Shown: one piece after another, positions 216 to 7,376 of the stretch
Layout: each line of letters starts with the position of its first letter
Position numbering within the stretch: position 1 is the first letter of the stretch
Source of the DNA: Guyparkeria hydrothermalis
GTDB lineage: Bacteria > Pseudomonadota > Gammaproteobacteria > Halothiobacillales > Halothiobacillaceae
NCBI RefSeq assembly: GCF_023555385.1
Contig: NZ_JAJSED010000001.1
Location: 1,054,001 to 1,118,000, forward strand
DNA length: 64,000 nt
Direction of reading: 5' to 3'
The notes under the pieces: model-generated
Database searches by the model: none
The model's input: only the letters and a program-made list of their open reading frames with translations
Told to the model about the DNA's origin: nothing
Translations under genes and position numbers: made by a program

Positions 216-881
216 ATGTGCGGTCGCTATGCCCTTCACACAAACCCGATGCGGGTCGCACAACACCTCGGGCTATCGATTGAGTTGGACTGGGATCCGA
301 CATACAACATCGCGCCGGGCCGAGTGGTCCCGGTAATTGCCCCCAATCCAGCCTCCGGCGAACCAATCGGTACCGAGGCACACTGGGGCTTCCACCCCCA
401 CTGGGCCGGGCAGGACGCCCCCACGCCGATCAATGCCCGAGCCGAAAGCCTGCGTAAAAGCCGCTACTTCCTCGACAGCTTCCGTAATCACCGCTGCCTC
501 GTGCCCGCCGACGGCTGGTACGAGTGGATGGAAGAGCACGGCAAAAAGCTGCCTTGGTACTTCGCGCGCAACGATGGCCACCCGATCGTGTTCGCCGGCC
601 TGATGGCCCGGGGAAAAGACGACAGCCAAACCATGGCCATCATCACCGAGCCAGCCCGCGGCATGGCCAAGACGATCCATGACCGAATGCCGCTGGTGCT
701 TACTCCGGAGAGCATCACCTCCTGGCTGTCACCCGGGCTGACCGATCCCGACGAGCTCCGCGAGCAGGTTCACCACGAACCGATCGAAGACTTCCGCGCA
801 TTCCGGGTCAGCCCCGTGGTCAATCGAGCGGACGCCGAAGGCGCCGAACTGATCACACCGACCAATCCCGACCGCTCTTGA
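216..881 (+). CDS. SRAP-family protein (SOS response-associated peptidase, YedK/HMCES type)
   Basis: This 221-residue protein has the full SRAP signature. Cys2 directly follows the start Met and becomes the catalytic N-terminal residue. Next come YNIAPG, WGFHPHW, INARAES, CLVPADGWYEW and HDRMPLVL. In the YedK/HMCES family Cys2 forms a covalent thiazolidine link to abasic sites in single-stranded DNA and shields them from nucleases. The length matches the family (about 220 residues). GAGGG lies upstream of the ATG. Homologues are often chromosomal but are also carried by mobile elements; here the gene begins an accessory segment. The family call is very safe. Any link to the genes downstream is only positional. 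Confidence 0.95.
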   Translation: MCGRYALHTNPMRVAQHLGLSIELDWDPTYNIAPGRVVPVIAPNPASGEPIGTEAHWGFHPHWAGQDAPTPINARAESLRKSRYFLDSFRNHRCLVPADGWYEWMEEHGKKLPWYFARNDGHPIVFAGLMARGKDDSQTMAIITEPARGMAKTIHDRMPLVLTPESITSWLSPGLTDPDELREQVHHEPIEDFRAFRVSPVVNRADAEGAELITPTNPDRS

Positions 882-1003: not shown

Positions 1004-1279
1004 ATGAAGACCACCGACGTTCACGACCACGACCGAGAGCGAAACCTGACCTTTGCGAAAAGACTGCGCGAGGGGTCATACATCATCCTCGGCTTCGCGC
1101 TTTACGCCGCCCTGATGCTCATGAACCACGACGGGGTCATATCGCTTCCCGCCTGGCTGGTCTGGGAGGTGCCCGCGCCCGAGATCAAGCCGATCATGTA
1201 CCTCGCGGGGTTCGCTGCCCTGCAGGCCAAGGCCAAGAACATCGAGTTGGATGCCGGGCACGATCATCGCGGGTTCTGA
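1004..1279 (+). CDS. small two-helix membrane protein, paralogue of the next gene
   Basis: The 91-residue product starts after a strong AGGAGG site. A polar, charged N-terminus (residues 1-25) precedes one hydrophobic helix (about 28-42) and a second weaker one (about 65-78). It aligns without gaps to the following gene over 57 residues with about 18 identities, including the shared SY..L..AL start and AP.E.K.I.Y...F.A core. This points to tandem duplication. No known family is recognised. The run of four + strand genes from here to 4542 is closely spaced and may be one operon. Function unknown. Confidence 0.6.
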   Translation: MKTTDVHDHDRERNLTFAKRLREGSYIILGFALYAALMLMNHDGVISLPAWLVWEVPAPEIKPIMYLAGFAALQAKAKNIELDAGHDHRGF

Positions 1280-1315
1280 CCGACGAACGTCAAGAAACAA
1301 AGGGGTAGAAACACC

Positions 1316-1588
1316 ATGTCGAAGCAAGCTCAAAACAAACCGATGATGAACATGACTAGGCGGGAAATGATGCAGGTTGCCTCCCATGTGAGCTATTTCT
1401 CTCTCGTCTGCGCCCTCTGGATGGCCGCCTCACTGCTGGAGCGGGATAGCGGCACCGAGTGGTCGTCTCTGCTGATCGGCTCGGCCCCGGCCTTAGAACT
1501 CAAGGCCATCTTCTACATACTGCTTTTCGTGGCAATCCGATCGGTACTGAATTATCTCGAGGAGACGGACAGCCCGAGCAAACAATGA
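1316..1588 (+). CDS. small two-helix membrane protein, paralogue of the previous gene
   Basis: The 90-residue product begins after AAAGGGG and a short spacer. It has a Met-rich polar N-terminus, a hydrophobic helix around residues 25-40 and another around 62-75, and ends in an acidic tail. It is the tandem paralogue of the gene at 1004 (same spacing of SY, AL, AP.LELK and Y..LF.AI elements). Its TGA overlaps the ATG of the next gene as ATGA, so the two are translationally coupled. No family is recognised. The coupling suggests the membrane proteins act with the HhH protein that follows. Confidence 0.6.
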   Translation: MSKQAQNKPMMNMTRREMMQVASHVSYFSLVCALWMAASLLERDSGTEWSSLLIGSAPALELKAIFYILLFVAIRSVLNYLEETDSPSKQ

Positions 1589-2787
1589 GCTTCTTCAACA
1601 TCGGCAAGAAGGACGCCGACGGTCGGCAAGTCCGCATCGAGCATCGTGGGCGCTATTTGCGGGCCAGCCGAACGGGTGAGGTGTCCCTACGTGCCCAGAC
1701 GAAAGCAGCCGGCGTCAATTTCACCGGCAACACGGCACAAGGCATTCGCGTCTCGGCCACGCCGGTCAAGGACACCCAGATCGCGCTACAAAACGGCCGG
1801 TTCATTCTTCGCGGTCGCTACGGACGCGGACCGACCAAGCTGAATCTGTCGAAAACGGGCGTGACGGTTTCAACGCGCAACCGGCTAGGGACGTTCAACT
1901 GGATCAAGCCCAACCGCTCTTCAGCCAAGATCGCCGGCGTCCAGGTCCGAGGCCGAAATGCCGTCGTACTCCAGTCGATCTACTTCGCCTTCTCGGCTAT
2001 CGGGCTGCTGTCGCAAATGGTGGTCTCGGCTCTGCGATTACTGGTACAGGTCGTCGCCAGTTTGGCTCGCGGCACGGCCTGGCTGATTAAAGCTACGCCG
2101 CCCGCCATGCAAACCCTAAGACGCCGCCTGCGCAACTGGCGACTCGAGCGTCTCCAGCGGCAATTCGACGTCGAGGTTCTGGACACACTCGGCCGGATGA
2201 CGGATGCCGAACTGCGAGCAGCGACCCACCTGGCTTTCGCGTGTTGGGGACGGGGAGAGCCAGCGTCATCGGAAATGATCGACGCCGAGGAAGTAGAGCG
2301 TGCGGTGCCGATGCTGTCCTACATCGAGCGAAATGCACCGGAAGGCGACTGGCACCTGGCAGTGCTCGGGCGAGTTGCCGAGATCCTGTCGAGACGGCTA
2401 GCGGTGTCGGACATGGGCGAACTGCTGCTCATCGCGGACGAAGCGGCGCTCGCCCAAGGACCTAGAACCGTACTGCAAGAGCGGATGCTGGAGGTGTTCG
2501 CCGATTTCGCCGGGTTGGAACTTGAACCGGTCGACCAATCGGAGCAAGCCACCAAAACGACCCCGCCACCAGGGAAACGGTCCGCCAGCAGGCCCGCGAG
2601 CAGCCATTCCATCAATCTGAACACGGCCTCACTCGAAGATCTCCAGTCCCTGCCCCACATCGGCCCGGAACGCGCGGAGGACCTCGTCGGCATGCGGCCG
2701 ATCGAGCGCATCGAGCAACTCCGCGCGATCGATGGCATCGGTCCCGCGCGTCTGGAGCAAATCAAGGCGCATGGTGTGACCGTCTGA
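1585..2787 (+). CDS. membrane-anchored protein with DUF4236-like N-terminus and C-terminal helix-hairpin-helix repeats
   Basis: A 400-residue protein starting at the ATG inside the preceding stop (ATGA). Residues 1-125 are beta-rich and basic and contain KLNLSKTGVTVST, resembling the N-terminal motif of DUF4236 proteins. A hydrophobic span follows at about 128-165. Residues 190-320 look helical and acidic. A Pro/Ser/Lys linker leads to a ComEA-type pair of helix-hairpin-helix motifs: INLNTASLEDL..LPHIGPERA and then IDGIGPARLEQI. Such HhH pairs bind DNA backbone non-specifically in known families. The arrangement suggests a membrane-tethered DNA-binding protein. The role is unknown; the HhH call is firm, the DUF4236 call tentative. 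Confidence 0.7.
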   Translation: MSFFNIGKKDADGRQVRIEHRGRYLRASRTGEVSLRAQTKAAGVNFTGNTAQGIRVSATPVKDTQIALQNGRFILRGRYGRGPTKLNLSKTGVTVSTRNRLGTFNWIKPNRSSAKIAGVQVRGRNAVVLQSIYFAFSAIGLLSQMVVSALRLLVQVVASLARGTAWLIKATPPAMQTLRRRLRNWRLERLQRQFDVEVLDTLGRMTDAELRAATHLAFACWGRGEPASSEMIDAEEVERAVPMLSYIERNAPEGDWHLAVLGRVAEILSRRLAVSDMGELLLIADEAALAQGPRTVLQERMLEVFADFAGLELEPVDQSEQATKTTPPPGKRSASRPASSHSINLNTASLEDLQSLPHIGPERAEDLVGMRPIERIEQLRAIDGIGPARLEQIKAHGVTV

Positions 2788-2859
2788 CGATCGCCACCTG
2801 ATACAGTCCTCAAGCTGTCTCGGAACGGCCGTCAATCACGTCTCCAGCGCATTGGCCCA

Positions 2860-4542
2860 ATGACTATCAAGGCATACAACCAAAAGGCCTCGACATTCTT
2901 CGCCCAGTATCAATCCGTGAGCTTTGAACGCGTCCATGGCGACTGGTCGCCGCTTCTACCTGACCAGGCCGGCCTTGCCCTCGATGTCGGGGCAGCAAGC
3001 GGGCGCGACGCGCTTGCCTTGGCCGAGCGAGGATGGGATGTCATCGCGGTCGAACCTGCCGCCGAGCTACGGCGCCTCGGCGAACAGGAAACAGGAAAAG
3101 CCAGCGTGCAGTGGTTGGATGATCAACTTCCGGATCTCGCCCAAGTCCGAAAACTCACCTACCGCTTTGACCTGATTCTCGTCTCGGCAGTCTGGATGCA
3201 CGTTGCCCCGACCCAACGAGAGCGAGCGTTCAGGATCCTGACGGAGCTGCTGGCGCCGTCGGGAATGCTGGTCATCACGCTCCGTCACGGCCCCGGTGAT
3301 GGGGAGCGGGTCTTCCACGAGGTAAGCAAGGCAGAACTCGACGCGCTGGCGCGTCACCGTGCGGTCATGCCAGTGCCACTTAGCAGCGCACCGCACGCCG
3401 ATCAACTCCAACGGCCGGAGGTCTGGTGGGAAACGGCTGTTTATCGGCTACCAGACGATGGGACGGGAGCGCTCCCAACCTTGCGTCACGTCATCGTCAA
3501 CGACAACAAGTCGTCCACATACAAGCTTGGCCTACTCCGCACGTTGGTACGAATCGCCGACAGCGCTCCCGGCCTTGTCCTTGAACACACCGATGAATAC
3601 GTGGAGTTGCCTCTCGGCGCCCTGGGGCTCTTCTGGGTGATGCTCTATCACCCGCTGGTACTCCGACACGGCCTACGGCAATCACCAGGCAAGCGTGGGC
3701 TTGGGTTCGCCACGAATCACTTCAACGCCCTCAAGACCCTCTCCGTTTTGGACCTTCGTCCCGGCCAATCACTCTCGGCGGACATCGCCCCGACCGTGCT
3801 CCACGCAATCCGTGATGCCTCGGCAAACATTTTGAAGAATCCGGCGCGGTTCACGACTTGGCCGGGCACGAACCGGCCGATATTCGACGGTGGCCCGAAA
3901 CGCCTGGTCATCAAGCCGCAGGCGGTGAGATTGGATCGCGAGACCCTCGCCCGCTTTGGACGCTTCCGCGTCCCAGCAAGTCTCTGGGACACGTTCAGCC
4001 GATATGCGTGCTGGGTTGAGCCCGCAATCGTGAACGAATGGGTCAATCTGATGCAGGACTGGGACATCAGCCACTCAGCGGACGAGTGCCGCCACGCGTT
4101 GAGCTGGTCGGAGGGCCGTCGTGACACAAGCCTGACCCGCCGCATGATCGAGAGCCAACTGAAATCGGGCAAGGTCGAATGCGTCTGGACGGGCAGTGAC
4201 CTGCGGCGAAAACGTCACGACATCGACCACTGTTTCCCTTGGTCACGTTGGAGTAACAACGACCTCTGGAACCTGATGCCGTCATCGGCGACTGCCAACG
4301 CGAAAAAAGCGGAGAAATTACCGGCCGATTCGCTGCTCAAGGAATCGCGGGGACGGATTCTTGATTGGTGGGATGCCGCCATCATCGGCACCGAACGGGA
4401 AGATCAGTTCTATGCCGAAGCTGAATCATCGCTGCCATTACTCAACCGCGGCGCGAGTATCGAGAGCGTTTTCGAAGCGATGCTTCGGCAGCGGCTTCGC
4501 CTCAAGACCAACCTCCAGTTGGCTGAGTGGATGGGCCTGTGA
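2860..4542 (+). CDS. fusion protein: class I SAM-dependent methyltransferase plus HNH endonuclease
   Basis: A 560-residue fusion. Residues 1-190 are a class I methyltransferase: motif I is LDVGAASGRD (41-50), with the acidic ribose-binding position at E65 in VIAVEP. Residues about 200-440 are a helical region I cannot name, starting near SSTYKLGLLRTLVRIAD. The C-terminal HNH nuclease has DIDH at 454-457, LWNL with N471, and N480 followed by KK, the standard His-Asn-Asn zinc/metal finger spacing. HNH domains of this kind nick or cut DNA. No NPPY-type motif is seen, so DNA-base N-methylation is not supported; the methyltransferase may act on another substrate or regulate the nuclease. Its position on an accessory segment fits a defence or mobile-element role, which is inference. 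Confidence 0.85.
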   Translation: MTIKAYNQKASTFFAQYQSVSFERVHGDWSPLLPDQAGLALDVGAASGRDALALAERGWDVIAVEPAAELRRLGEQETGKASVQWLDDQLPDLAQVRKLTYRFDLILVSAVWMHVAPTQRERAFRILTELLAPSGMLVITLRHGPGDGERVFHEVSKAELDALARHRAVMPVPLSSAPHADQLQRPEVWWETAVYRLPDDGTGALPTLRHVIVNDNKSSTYKLGLLRTLVRIADSAPGLVLEHTDEYVELPLGALGLFWVMLYHPLVLRHGLRQSPGKRGLGFATNHFNALKTLSVLDLRPGQSLSADIAPTVLHAIRDASANILKNPARFTTWPGTNRPIFDGGPKRLVIKPQAVRLDRETLARFGRFRVPASLWDTFSRYACWVEPAIVNEWVNLMQDWDISHSADECRHALSWSEGRRDTSLTRRMIESQLKSGKVECVWTGSDLRRKRHDIDHCFPWSRWSNNDLWNLMPSSATANAKKAEKLPADSLLKESRGRILDWWDAAIIGTEREDQFYAEAESSLPLLNRGASIESVFEAMLRQRLRLKTNLQLAEWMGL

Positions 4543-4687
4543 ATCGGCATCGTAAACGCCTATAAGGAAACCATCGAAAGCGAGAAACAACTGCGCCGCG
4601 CTGAACGGATCAGCAGTGAAACTCTTGAGGTGTCTAGTGAAGTCGGAGCGATTCAATCCATATCTTCGCCTTGATGCCCCCCGTCTC

Positions 4688-5155
4688 CTACCGCTCGCGA
4701 TATTTCCTCATCACGTTTGCCTTCGACTTCCGCATACTTCCAATCAACCTGATCATGTCGTTGACCTTTTCAAGTTGATTCATGGTTTCAAGGATTAGCG
4801 CCTTTTCCTCGGCGCCGGCTTTCCCGAACTGGCGAATTGAATACTTGCCTGTTTTCGTCCGGCGTAGAAACTTGGATCGCATTTGCCATTGCTTCTGGCC
4901 TGCCCCTGATGCGGCCGGTATCCAAATCAATTCAGCCCAGTCGATCCGCAGCGTGTAGCTACCTGTTGTTTTCTCTTCGCCTCGAACAAAGACGGTGTAC
5001 TTGAACCAATCCTTGGGCCGGCTCTGCCTGCGGATCTCTAGCGACCTCTCCCAAAACGGTTCACAAATCCTTTGGGCCTCATACTCTGCGGATCGGATCA
5101 CCGCATCCATGACCTCGCCCAGGTTGTCCAGGGCGTCGTCGATCTCGTCTCTCAT
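4688..5155 (-). CDS. MobI-like conjugative transfer protein (tentative)
   Basis: The 155-residue product starts after a strong AAGGAGG site. It has an N-terminal helix (about 1-45), a central beta region with GSYTLRIDWAELIW and QKQWQMRSKFLRR, a short KYSIRQFGKAG segment, and a long C-terminal helix rich in Lys/Arg. This order recalls MobI proteins of SXT/R391-type integrative elements, which are about 150 residues and act with the origin of transfer located upstream of mobI. Here a cluster of palindromes sits directly upstream of the start. The resemblance is by layout from memory, not alignment, so confidence is moderate. It is the last of three - strand genes. Confidence 0.4.
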   Translation of the reverse strand: MRDEIDDALDNLGEVMDAVIRSAEYEAQRICEPFWERSLEIRRQSRPKDWFKYTVFVRGEEKTTGSYTLRIDWAELIWIPAASGAGQKQWQMRSKFLRRTKTGKYSIRQFGKAGAEEKALILETMNQLEKVNDMIRLIGSMRKSKANVMRKYRER

Positions 5156-5222
5156 GCACCCAGGCCTCCTTCGCCTATTTCTGGGTCTACCACGTCTCTC
5201 TAAACGGGATCACAACATCACT

Positions 5223-5437
5223 CCATGATGCAGCCATCTTAATTATACTGAACATGGTTCCATGTTGCAGAAAATTAAGGCGGCGTGCGGGGACGGCAGC
5301 GCCGCGCCGCCCTATCACCCTATGCAAATCAGATACTTAGGTGGGGAAACCAAATCCATGATGCCGTAAATTAGTTACGGCATCATGGGGTCATGATGGA
5401 TAGAGCAGCTTTTTTCGAGCGAACGCCATGATGGCGT
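5223..5437. repeat. palindrome/iteron-like cluster built on CCATGATG (candidate oriT or operator region)
   Basis: This patch lies in the 317-bp gene-free gap between the 266-residue protein and the MobI-like gene, and is AT-richer than its surroundings. CCATGATG occurs exactly at 5223 (+), 5356 (+), 5381 (-) and 5426 (+), with a 7/8 match at 5391. Perfect inverted repeats are at 5251-5266 (7-bp arms, 2-bp loop), 5356-5388 (14-bp arms, 5-bp loop ATTAG), 5381-5398 (7-bp arms) and 5423-5437 (7-bp arms). Such density suggests protein binding sites; oriT, a partition site or operators are all possible. No U-run follows the 14-bp stem on the - strand, so a simple terminator is unlikely. Confidence 0.65.
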
Positions 5438-5472
5438 GAATAATTTACTGCGACATGGAATTGGTTTCGTAG

Positions 5473-6273
5473 TTATCGGCCATTCTGGCTTGCGGCCTTT
5501 CGTGCCACCATCGGGCCCAATGAGACCATCAGATCGACCGGCGATACGCCCGGGTGATTCTTCGCCAGCTGGGCGAGCACGAGGTTGGAAACCTCGAAGG
5601 CATCTTCAGGCGAGATCGGTATCGCCTTGACCCCTTCCGGGCTGAACAAGCGGCCGAACATGTTGCCCCCCTGATCCTGGAAGGAAAATCCCTTGTTGTT
5701 TCGTGGGCCGTGATTCTTGTATTCGATCTGCGAGATCAGCCCGAGAAACACGGCGGCAACCATGGGTAATTCCTGCCTGGTTACCTGGATCCGGGCCTTG
5801 TGGCTCCAATCGTATTCACGGTTTGGGCCTTGCTTGGCAGGTGCAGCCTCGATAGCAACCGTGTGATACCCGGCCCGCGTCTGGTCAGGCTCAAAGCAAA
5901 AGGCAGCTTTCGAGCCATAAACCTTTACCTGATCGGCAGTTCGACCCACGCTCCGTTTTTTGGGAACCATCTCACTTGGCTGCGTTGTGAGCTTCGGTCC
6001 TTGGTCGCCGGCATCACGACCGCGATCTTTCACGCTCGGGCGCTGCCGAAGATCCGATTCAGGCTCCGATGACGATTCAGCACCGTGTTCCCGAACTAGA
6101 TTGCGAAGAAAGACATCGACACCTTTCCGCTTCTCCCTCAGGTCCTGGACGGCTCGCATTACCTGCCCTGGACCACGGGTCTTGATTGCCGACTCAAACC
6201 CCTGCCGCGTAAAGCGCGGCAGTCTCGACTCGGCCAGCAGTCGATTCACGGTTTCCAGTTGCATCGTTTGCAT
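5473..6273 (-). CDS. accessory-element protein of unknown function, N-terminal domain shared with the upstream gene
   Basis: A 266-residue protein starting at ATG 6273 after GGAGGG with 8-nt spacing (a GTG at 6276 is also in frame). Residues 1-60 are a helical domain (VNRLL..SRLPRFT..GFESA, ending VDVFLRNLVRE) that aligns to the neighbouring 174-residue protein at about 28% identity. Residues 65-115 are polar, Lys/Arg/Ser-rich and probably a linker. The C-terminal half (about 120-266) is a compact domain containing SHKARIQVTRQELPMVAAVFLG, FSFQDQGGNMFGRLFS and an AIPISPEDAFEVSNLVL helix. I do not recognise the family. Its place between the paralogue and the MobI-like gene suggests a mobile-element function. 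Confidence 0.6.
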   Translation of the reverse strand: MQTMQLETVNRLLAESRLPRFTRQGFESAIKTRGPGQVMRAVQDLREKRKGVDVFLRNLVREHGAESSSEPESDLRQRPSVKDRGRDAGDQGPKLTTQPSEMVPKKRSVGRTADQVKVYGSKAAFCFEPDQTRAGYHTVAIEAAPAKQGPNREYDWSHKARIQVTRQELPMVAAVFLGLISQIEYKNHGPRNNKGFSFQDQGGNMFGRLFSPEGVKAIPISPEDAFEVSNLVLAQLAKNHPGVSPVDLMVSLGPMVARKAASQNGR

Positions 6274-6331
6274 CACCTACACCCTCCAAAATGCGGCTGT
6301 TCGACAACTCCCGGGTATGTCCGCGAAGCCC

Positions 6332-6856
6332 TCAACTCGCAACTCGAAGCAAGCCCTCCATTACCAACGCCTCGGGCTCCTTGTTCGCACAGGAAACGGG
6401 GACGCCGTTTACCAACATGGGGCGCAGTTCCATACGGCAAGCGAATACCACGTCGCGAGAATGTTGGCCGCCGCCGTGGATAGGCGACACTGTCCTACCG
6501 TGATGCCTGACCACGGGGTTAACACCGTTGGACACGGCCTCGATCGCTTTGGCCCGCCGGCAAGCTGTCTCACGATCTCGACTCGTCCGGGCACCACTCT
6601 CCATTACGCCTTCCCGGTTAGATCCCGAGCCGGCTCGCGCGGCTATTCCCACGCAGTCGCGAATCAGGCTGTACCAAAAGAAGTGCACAGCTCTCGCATT
6701 TCGCTCGAGATCGAAAAGACCGTCTCGGATCGCTCTCGCCCCGACCCGCGCAAGTGCCACATCAAAACTTCCCGGCGTGAAGGTGGGCAGAGCGTGGTTC
6801 CGGAGCACGGTGTTCACGTCATCGACGGTCAGGGTGTTCAGCTCTTCATTCATCAT
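6332..6856 (-). CDS. accessory protein of unknown function, paralogous N-terminal domain
   Basis: A 174-residue protein; the ATG at 6856 is preferred because AAGGAG lies 9 nt upstream, while a longer in-frame extension to 6949 lacks a site. Residues about 5-65 (VDDVNTVLRNHALPTFTPGSF to VHFFWYSLIRD) match the N-terminal domain of the next gene, sharing VN, LP.FT, F..A, G, DL, V.F and L.R positions. The rest is Arg-rich with no recognised domain and may be partly degenerate. It is first in the three-gene - strand run, 58 bp before the 266-residue gene. Function unknown. Confidence 0.5.
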   Translation of the reverse strand: MMNEELNTLTVDDVNTVLRNHALPTFTPGSFDVALARVGARAIRDGLFDLERNARAVHFFWYSLIRDCVGIAARAGSGSNREGVMESGARTSRDRETACRRAKAIEAVSNGVNPVVRHHGRTVSPIHGGGQHSRDVVFACRMELRPMLVNGVPVSCANKEPEALVMEGLLRVAS

Positions 6857-7173
6857 CGGAGACATCTCCTTTCTGGTTGACACAAGACCAGACTCACACG
6901 AGGAGATGGATCCGCTATTTTTTGGACCACGCTTTAACGCACCCTTCACGTCTCAGCCCGGCATCGACCAACCAACAAGGCAACGCTGCCACCCAGGAGG
7001 CCCACAGAGCCTTCCTCCGGGGATGTGTAGTAGAGAGGTAGAGGCGCAAGGGCACGAGCAGGAGGCTGCCGCCTGTCAGGGACGATGCAGCGGGGCGATC
7101 ACAGGAAGTTCAGGGTTGGGCGGGGGAAACGACCAGGTTGACCAGCGGAGCAGAACGATGAATCCTTGCACAC
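6857..7173. other. gene-free stretch between accessory operon and tRNA terminators
   Basis: No convincing reading frame, RNA gene or repeat is seen here. It should carry the promoter of the - strand accessory operon, but no good -35/-10 pair stands out. If an island boundary exists at the tRNA-Ala 3' end, the attachment site would lie just right of this stretch; no copy of the tRNA 3' end is found elsewhere in the window. Confidence 0.4.
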
Positions 7174-7207
7174 GAAAAAGGCCGCACCCAGTCTGGATGC
7201 GGCCTTT
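7174..7207 (-). terminator. intrinsic terminator downstream of tRNA-Ala
   Basis: A 10-bp stem (AAAGGCCGCA with TGCGGCCTTT) and an 11-nt loop that can pair further is followed on the - strand by a run of five T. It lies about 95 bp past the tRNA 3' end and reads in the tRNA direction. Confidence 0.65.
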
Positions 7208-7216
7208 CCGGGCCCG

Positions 7217-7249
7217 AAAAGCCTACCGTTTTAGGATTGGTAGGTTTTT
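7217..7249 (-). terminator. possible first hairpin terminator after tRNA-Ala
   Basis: CCTACC and GGTAGG form a stem extended by A/T pairs, with an 11-nt loop and a CTTTTC tail on the - strand. It is weaker than the next hairpin and could instead be part of an integration junction. Confidence 0.4.
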
Positions 7250-7300
7250 GGGTAGTTTTATCGGGAAACCAGCTCTAAGTGACTGATTTCCCTTTCTGTG

Positions 7301-7376
7301 TGGTGGAGCCAGGCGGGATCGAACCGCCGACCTCCTGCATGCCATGCAGGCGCTCTCCCAGCTGAGCTATGGCCCC
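7301..7376 (-). tRNA. tRNA-Ala (anticodon GGC)
   Basis: Read on the - strand this 76-nt gene starts GGGGCCATAGCTCAGC and ends with an encoded CCA. The anticodon stem CCTGC/GCAGG encloses the loop ATGGCAT, so the anticodon is GGC (alanine, reads GCC and GCU). The T arm carries GGTTCGATCCC. The acceptor stem pairs GGGGCCA with TGGCTCC (one G-T wobble). Accessory genes lie on its 3' side, the side commonly used by tyrosine-recombinase islands. Confidence 0.97.

Follow-up and report, generated by a model that had tools for sequence, protein, structure and literature searches.

What does a protein do that joins a methyltransferase to a nuclease in one chain, and what does the methyltransferase contribute to it? 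The question is raised by an open reading frame at positions 2860-4542 (+) of the window, the whole stretch of 64,000 nucleotides of Guyparkeria hydrothermalis DNA analysed here. Its stop-free translation of 560 amino acids consists of a methyltransferase (MTase), a central domain with a conserved YK motif and an HNH nuclease domain, an architecture supported by Pfam, by at least 80 fused loci and by AlphaFold (mean pLDDT 92, pTM 0.81; residues 203-560 modelled alone, pLDDT 93.5, pTM 0.90). The N-terminal part (approximately residues 1-200, positions 2860-3459 (+)) is a class I SAM-dependent MTase domain of small-molecule type by Pfam and Foldseek. Only general SAM-MTase families were seen in it: Methyltransf_11 (residues 41-139, E 5.9e-9) and Methyltransf_25 (E 1.3e-8), both above curated cut-offs, together with Methyltransf_23 and Methyltransf_12. 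SAM-binding motif I (ALDVGAASGRD, residues 40-50, positions 2977-3009 (+)) is strongly conserved among 59 aligned fused homologues of approximately 41-72% identity (G44, G48, R49 and D50 100%, D42 98%). The HNH domain (residues 447-488, positions 4198-4323 (+)) belongs to the Cas9-type family HNH_4 (E 1.9e-8, above the Pfam curated cut-off) and carries DIDH at residues 454-457; in the same homologues D456, N471, N480 and K483 are conserved at 100% and H457 at 98%. Motif I and the HNH residues, which the original prediction had read in a single frame, are thus both present, and both are conserved. Cas9 HNH domains were the best Foldseek matches of this part (VIA-align Z 6-7 over 94-110 residues); the likeness extends to the HNH_4 family and the conserved D/H/N residues, whereas the window protein has no RuvC, PAM-interacting or guide-binding part. 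The fold and the invariant catalytic residues indicate that the C-terminal half is probably a DNA nuclease.

The central helical part (approximately residues 203-440, positions 3466-4179 (+)) is defined by conservation and by hhalign, residues 200-440 having no Pfam family match. Its motif KSSTYKLGLLR (residues 217-227, positions 3508-3540 (+)) includes K217, Y221, K222, L225 and L226, all invariant in the aligned fused homologues. Using hhalign, the YK part of the fused protein was found to be related to the N-termini of lone HNH proteins from Hymenobacter and Leptolyngbya (93%, E 3.7e-7) and to those of the HNH proteins found at loci L229 and L220 (60%, E 8.8e-5), the latter being related in turn to the L219 type (75%). 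It has been described that sulfur is held in the sulfur-binding domain (SBD) by H116-R/K117 and P165 (PMC6224610), and several hhalign alignments place the YK motif opposite the HK of the SBD, none of them significantly. Despite the shared register, identification of the central domain as an SBD was not supported (hhalign E 0.15). No solved structure was matched, the Foldseek and VIA-align lists being filled by the HNH domain so that they barely test the central part; an alignment of the Wadjet-II JetABC chain 9qe0_D over residues 8-213 (Z 6.1) lies within noise. Pfam recognised no target-recognition domain in residues 203-440, a part that could itself serve as one. That the YK domain reads the DNA backbone is only an idea.

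More than 500 candidate relatives were identified in GTDB species genomes. The best 80 loci were fetched (40-72% identity) and nearly all of them span the whole fused protein, the MTase being fused in all full-length members. These 80 loci come from Gamma-, Beta- and Alphaproteobacteria, with single contigs, many of them MAGs, from Acidobacteriota, Nitrospirota, Cyanobacteria, Latescibacterota and Verrucomicrobiota. Such numbers in independent genomes exclude a chance fusion, and the proposed search for the same domain order has therefore turned up a real and widespread protein, found in about 16 of 398 Pseudomonadota genomes. The gene also proved to be accessory, as had been predicted: in 10 further genomes of the genus nothing beyond short patches corresponds to positions 2300-7300, and matching resumes in the tRNA-Ala region at 7301, which makes the gene cargo of an accessory island beside tRNA-Ala. 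A further 15 kb upstream gave no match in a closed congener, in a negative search that had no positive control, and no att repeat of the tRNA-Ala of 14 bases or more was found on the left side. The island encodes a MobI-family protein (4688-5155 (-); PF19456, E 4.8e-13) and may thus be mobilisable by an ICE. A pattern scan found no viral copies of the fused protein. Two adjacent ORFs at 5473-6276 (-) and 6332-6949 (-) gave no family matches, and their N-terminal segments look related by eye. At the edge of the window a gene for an SRAP (HMCES/YedK-like) protein (216-881 (+)) lies in a region unmatched in congener G269.

The surroundings of the relatives are rich in defence genes, those of random genes are not. 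Among 132 genes flanking 22 dereplicated fused loci, 81 PADLOC families were matched (E 1e-15), a count of families rather than proteins that corresponds to at least about a dozen distinct flanking proteins; these matches include Type IV and Type I enzymes, SspA/C/D, DrmMII, HNH and WYL. The control, 135 genes at 20 arbitrary places in related genomes, gave two families (mad2 and mad3). The homologues therefore sit in defence-rich and not in conserved housekeeping surroundings. With regard to the suggestion that the fusion forms an undescribed defence system together with the membrane and HhH genes directly upstream (1004-2787), these surroundings support its first half only: no homologue of the upstream genes was found beside any of approximately 88 other fused genes. 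No neighbour recurs in most of 90 loci. The recurrent upstream partner, where there is any, is a PLD-helicase-DUF3427 nuclease, whose gene overlaps that of the fused MTase-HNH by four bases in L053, L054, L055 and L060 or precedes it by a gap of 4-8 bases in L126 and L074. The PADLOC mad2 profile also matches the MTase region of the window protein itself. Membership of the MADS system was rejected, as this match is generic: the mad2 and mad3 models match random control genes as well and are promiscuous, and of the mad1-mad8 set nothing besides mad2 was matched by PADLOC in the tested neighbouring ORFs (1004-6949).

An enzyme of this composition invites comparison with restriction-modification (R-M). 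Type IIG enzymes have an MTase and a nuclease fused in a single chain. The window protein shares this arrangement with the Type IIG/IIC fusions and differs from them in lacking an NPPY or PCQ motif and any recognised target-recognition domain, in its small-molecule MTase fold and in the position of HNH at its C-terminus. Neither the (D/N/S)PP(Y/F/W) motif nor the PC of C5-MTases is present; the subfamily has SAVWMH instead, the segment after strand 4 of the window protein reading LILVSAVWMHV. Classical Type II or IIG R-M was accordingly rejected, in agreement with the original prediction, which had seen no DNA N-methylase motif. The best Foldseek matches of the MTase part are toxoflavin N-MT, TPMT, TehB, UbiG and halide and bacillithiol MTs. 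The TPMT/TehB-type enzymes share its fold and SAM motif, whereas the subfamily is set apart by fusion or adjacency to nucleases and by the signature WxxDxLPxL, SAVWMH and DxLxRxxVxW. On the grounds of motif, fold and lack of a recognised target-recognition domain, ordinary base methylation is unlikely. An R-M-like enzyme of non-canonical chemistry, in which the MTase would mark host DNA on a base, the backbone or a phosphorothioate (PT) sulfur and the HNH would cut unmarked DNA, has the grammar of R-M in its favour, with a single MTase family accompanying HNH, PLD and helicase-linked nucleases in the same chain or as a neighbour. It is nevertheless an unlikely explanation, given the motif and fold just described, a membrane-protein partner that does not fit and YK-HNH nucleases that occur without an MTase; SauUSI-type enzymes, too, act alone.

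Type IV and PT-dependent enzymes (ScoMcrA and SBD-HNH; SauUSI-like PLD-helicase-DUF3427) are likewise single-chain DNA nucleases of defence islands, and the window protein has a restriction-type nuclease domain, HNH_4, with conserved catalytic residues. They are enzymes without an MTase, whereas the window protein has one fused to it, and no SRA, SBD or EVE domain was recognised in it by Pfam or, for SBD, by hhalign. Members of both kinds, SBD-HNH and SauUSI-like, lie directly beside the MTase subfamily or are fused to it.

This became apparent in a survey of partners that used the MTase part alone as query (alignment A3), with partner classes assigned partly by eye and genes outside annotated records called by a simple longest-ORF script. 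Here METHYLTRANSFERASE is constant and its partners are exchanged: the subfamily is found beside or fused to at least five other effector types and a membrane protein. The partners are a split HNH_4 nuclease (L047, L051); HNH proteins that begin with a comparable YK part (L219, L229, L244 and, with an additional S24 domain, L220); an SBD-HNH_2 restriction enzyme (L231, L232), which in L231 has an N-terminus matching SBDHga1, a sulfur-binding domain of known structure (8h0l, E 1.2e-29), and there also matches NF045808, "phosphorothioated DNA-binding restriction endonuclease"; a SauUSI-like PLD-helicase-S24-DUF3427 protein, labelled Type IV methyl-directed by PADLOC (L044, L045, L046, L221, L228; fused in L223); a helicase whose N-terminus looks Vsr/DUF559-like by eye (L222, L226); and a small membrane protein (phages, L177, L181; fused in L179, L233, L234). 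The tree of the MTases requires 18 changes of partner class against a minimum of 8, and well-supported branches force several origins of the PLD-helicase and HNH_4-split partners. The fused protein of L223 (6744-10604) is a chain of 1286 amino acids comprising MTase, PLD nuclease, SF2 helicase, S24 (LexA-like) peptidase and DUF3427. S24 peptidase-like domains were also observed in the partner nucleases of L220, L222 and P0002 (L045, 4160-7450), hinting at SOS-like or autoproteolytic control of these nucleases.

The explanation we favour, held at a little less than even confidence, is a stand-alone, horizontally moving restriction-type defence enzyme with the MTase as its control half and the C-terminus as its DNA-cutting effector. 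The N-terminal SAM-dependent MTase is the element common to a family of two-part modules. Using SAM, it would read or methylate a target beyond the reach of the sequence-specific base methylation known from ordinary R-M (candidates are the backbone or sulfur of DNA, a nucleotide and the effector protein) and would thereby decide when the effector is active; the YK domain and the Cas9-type HNH would then nick or cut invading DNA. Anti-phage function and DNA cleavage are both presumed, and control by the MTase, the suggestion of the original prediction, is read from gene association: partner swapping is compatible with it. Control or licensing is favoured over a simple protector role since the same MTase accompanies nucleases and a membrane protein, while related nucleases live without it; YK-HNH clades with no adjacent MTase (L037, L188) imply that the MTase is not an obligatory protector. 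The swap between nuclease and membrane protein fits a control-plus-effector logic better than that of R-M, although the membrane proteins might serve to anchor the MTase instead of acting as effectors. Against control by the MTase counts an "alone" clade (13 rows) with no adjacent effector, in which R185 is mostly lost; the residue is invariant in the effector-linked clades.

A clade of stand-alone MTases (L235-L242, L036, L180), with R185 largely lost, was seen in proteobacteria of the alpha and other classes, in some cases next to clpB or metabolic genes, and probably has a different, non-defence role. Together with the metabolic type of the fold, stand-alone MTases would suit a chain of two unrelated activities, or the chance gain of a nuclease by a metabolic MTase. 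This is extremely improbable in view of the several nuclease classes to which the MTase is repeatedly fused or adjacent, the defence genes around it and its occurrence in several phyla. The MTase could also be a guard, sensing the loss of SAM or phage proteins that compete for it (SAM lyases, anti-restriction proteins) and unleashing the effector. Such a sensor could be combined with effectors of every kind, nucleases as well as membrane proteins, which is what is observed, and the residues of the SAM site are invariant, with G44, R49 and D50 kept in the membrane-protein-linked and clade B MTases also. The residues R142, R150, D181, R185 and W190, conserved beyond SAM binding, point to a specific substrate instead, and a guard function is very unlikely.

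The MTase subfamily also has a link to phosphorothioation. All six bacterial loci at which a membrane protein partners the MTase (L177, L179, L181, L182, L233, L234) are part of Ssp or Dnd clusters. Split forms L047 and L225 are found in dnd clusters, L225 carrying TIGR04096, "DNA phosphorothioation-associated putative methyltransferase". Of the fused genes, L070 has SspA, SspC and SspD next to it and L108 has SspD; PT genes were seen at none of 20 random loci. Across the 398 genomes, DndC (over cut-off) was detected in 12 and SspD in 10, and the MTase lies within approximately 10 kb of a PT writer in three of 22 writer genomes (G585, G609, G626) against an expectation of about 0.01, our own rough estimate from gene counts and genome sizes. 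These data, the sulfur-binding domain of the L231 partner and the thiol MTases among the nearest folds speak for an MTase acting on DNA sulfur (e.g. S-methylation of PT linkages) with a nuclease that cuts PT-marked DNA, the fused form being a free-standing weapon against PT-DNA. For the window protein this account is quite unlikely. Near the fused genes, PT genes occur at only two of the best 80 loci of the more than 500 candidates, and the similarity of the YK domain to SBD is not significant. Neither DndC over the cut-off nor SspD was matched in any of the 16 fused-form genomes of the 398-genome sample, the window's genome included, by searches that found both in other genomes; DndE was not matched in the host, nor in its control. 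The fused form therefore does its work with no need of PT in the host that carries it, and dependence on phosphorothioation there was rejected. Dnd/Ssp systems with accessory nucleases (PMC10853773, PMC11662687) resemble the family in that split and membrane-protein-linked MTases and split HNH_4 sit in such clusters; the difference lies in the fused form, whose sampled genomes gave neither DndC over the cut-off nor SspD. As far as its accessible part goes, PMC10853773 describes HNH with wHTH and SRA, not the MTase subfamily.

A PT- or sulfur-linked MTase substrate remains attractive, given the gene clusters and the thiol-MTase-like fold, and is unproven. A broader proposal, which we put forward tentatively and with some doubt, is a family of defence modules in which a shared MTase of small-molecule type acts on DNA sulfur or backbone or on the effector rather than on bases, and has control over effectors that can be exchanged for one another (HNH, PLD-helicase, Vsr-type helicase, SBD-HNH, membrane protein); in this family the window gene would be a one-piece version that left PT loci. 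The MTase appears to be a component, so far undescribed, that several bacterial defence modules have in common. Nucleases usually filed as lone Type IV enzymes (SauUSI-like, SBD-HNH, HNH) are thereby linked to one non-canonical SAM MTase, the same that is tied to PT gene clusters, and should this MTase prove to be a control module, many restriction-type systems would share a common part that has gone unnoticed. What the MTase methylates, and whether its loss switches the effector on or off, become testable questions, for which the single-gene form is handy. No description of an MTase-HNH or MTase-membrane protein pair was found in the open-access literature; prior discovery of a related system is possible, as an MTase system is mentioned in a figure of the DefensePredictor study (PMC13092281).

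The membrane protein and MTase also occur together in phage phi458, in IMG/VR loci, in 29 of 5,426 E. coli genomes and on plasmids. In temperate phages and these E. coli genomes (L038, 2282-3519; L245, 6055-7238; L163, L166, L168 and L172) the pair is convergent with a gene of the PAPS-reductase family in the early region. The phage-borne pair is a candidate two-gene defence or exclusion module. A family of approximately 180-200 amino acids was also observed in two dnd clusters, L225 (7257-7868 (-)) and L234 (3387-3929 (+)), its members matching each other with E 5e-29; both clusters also carry an HNH_4 nuclease and a TIGR04096-type protein.
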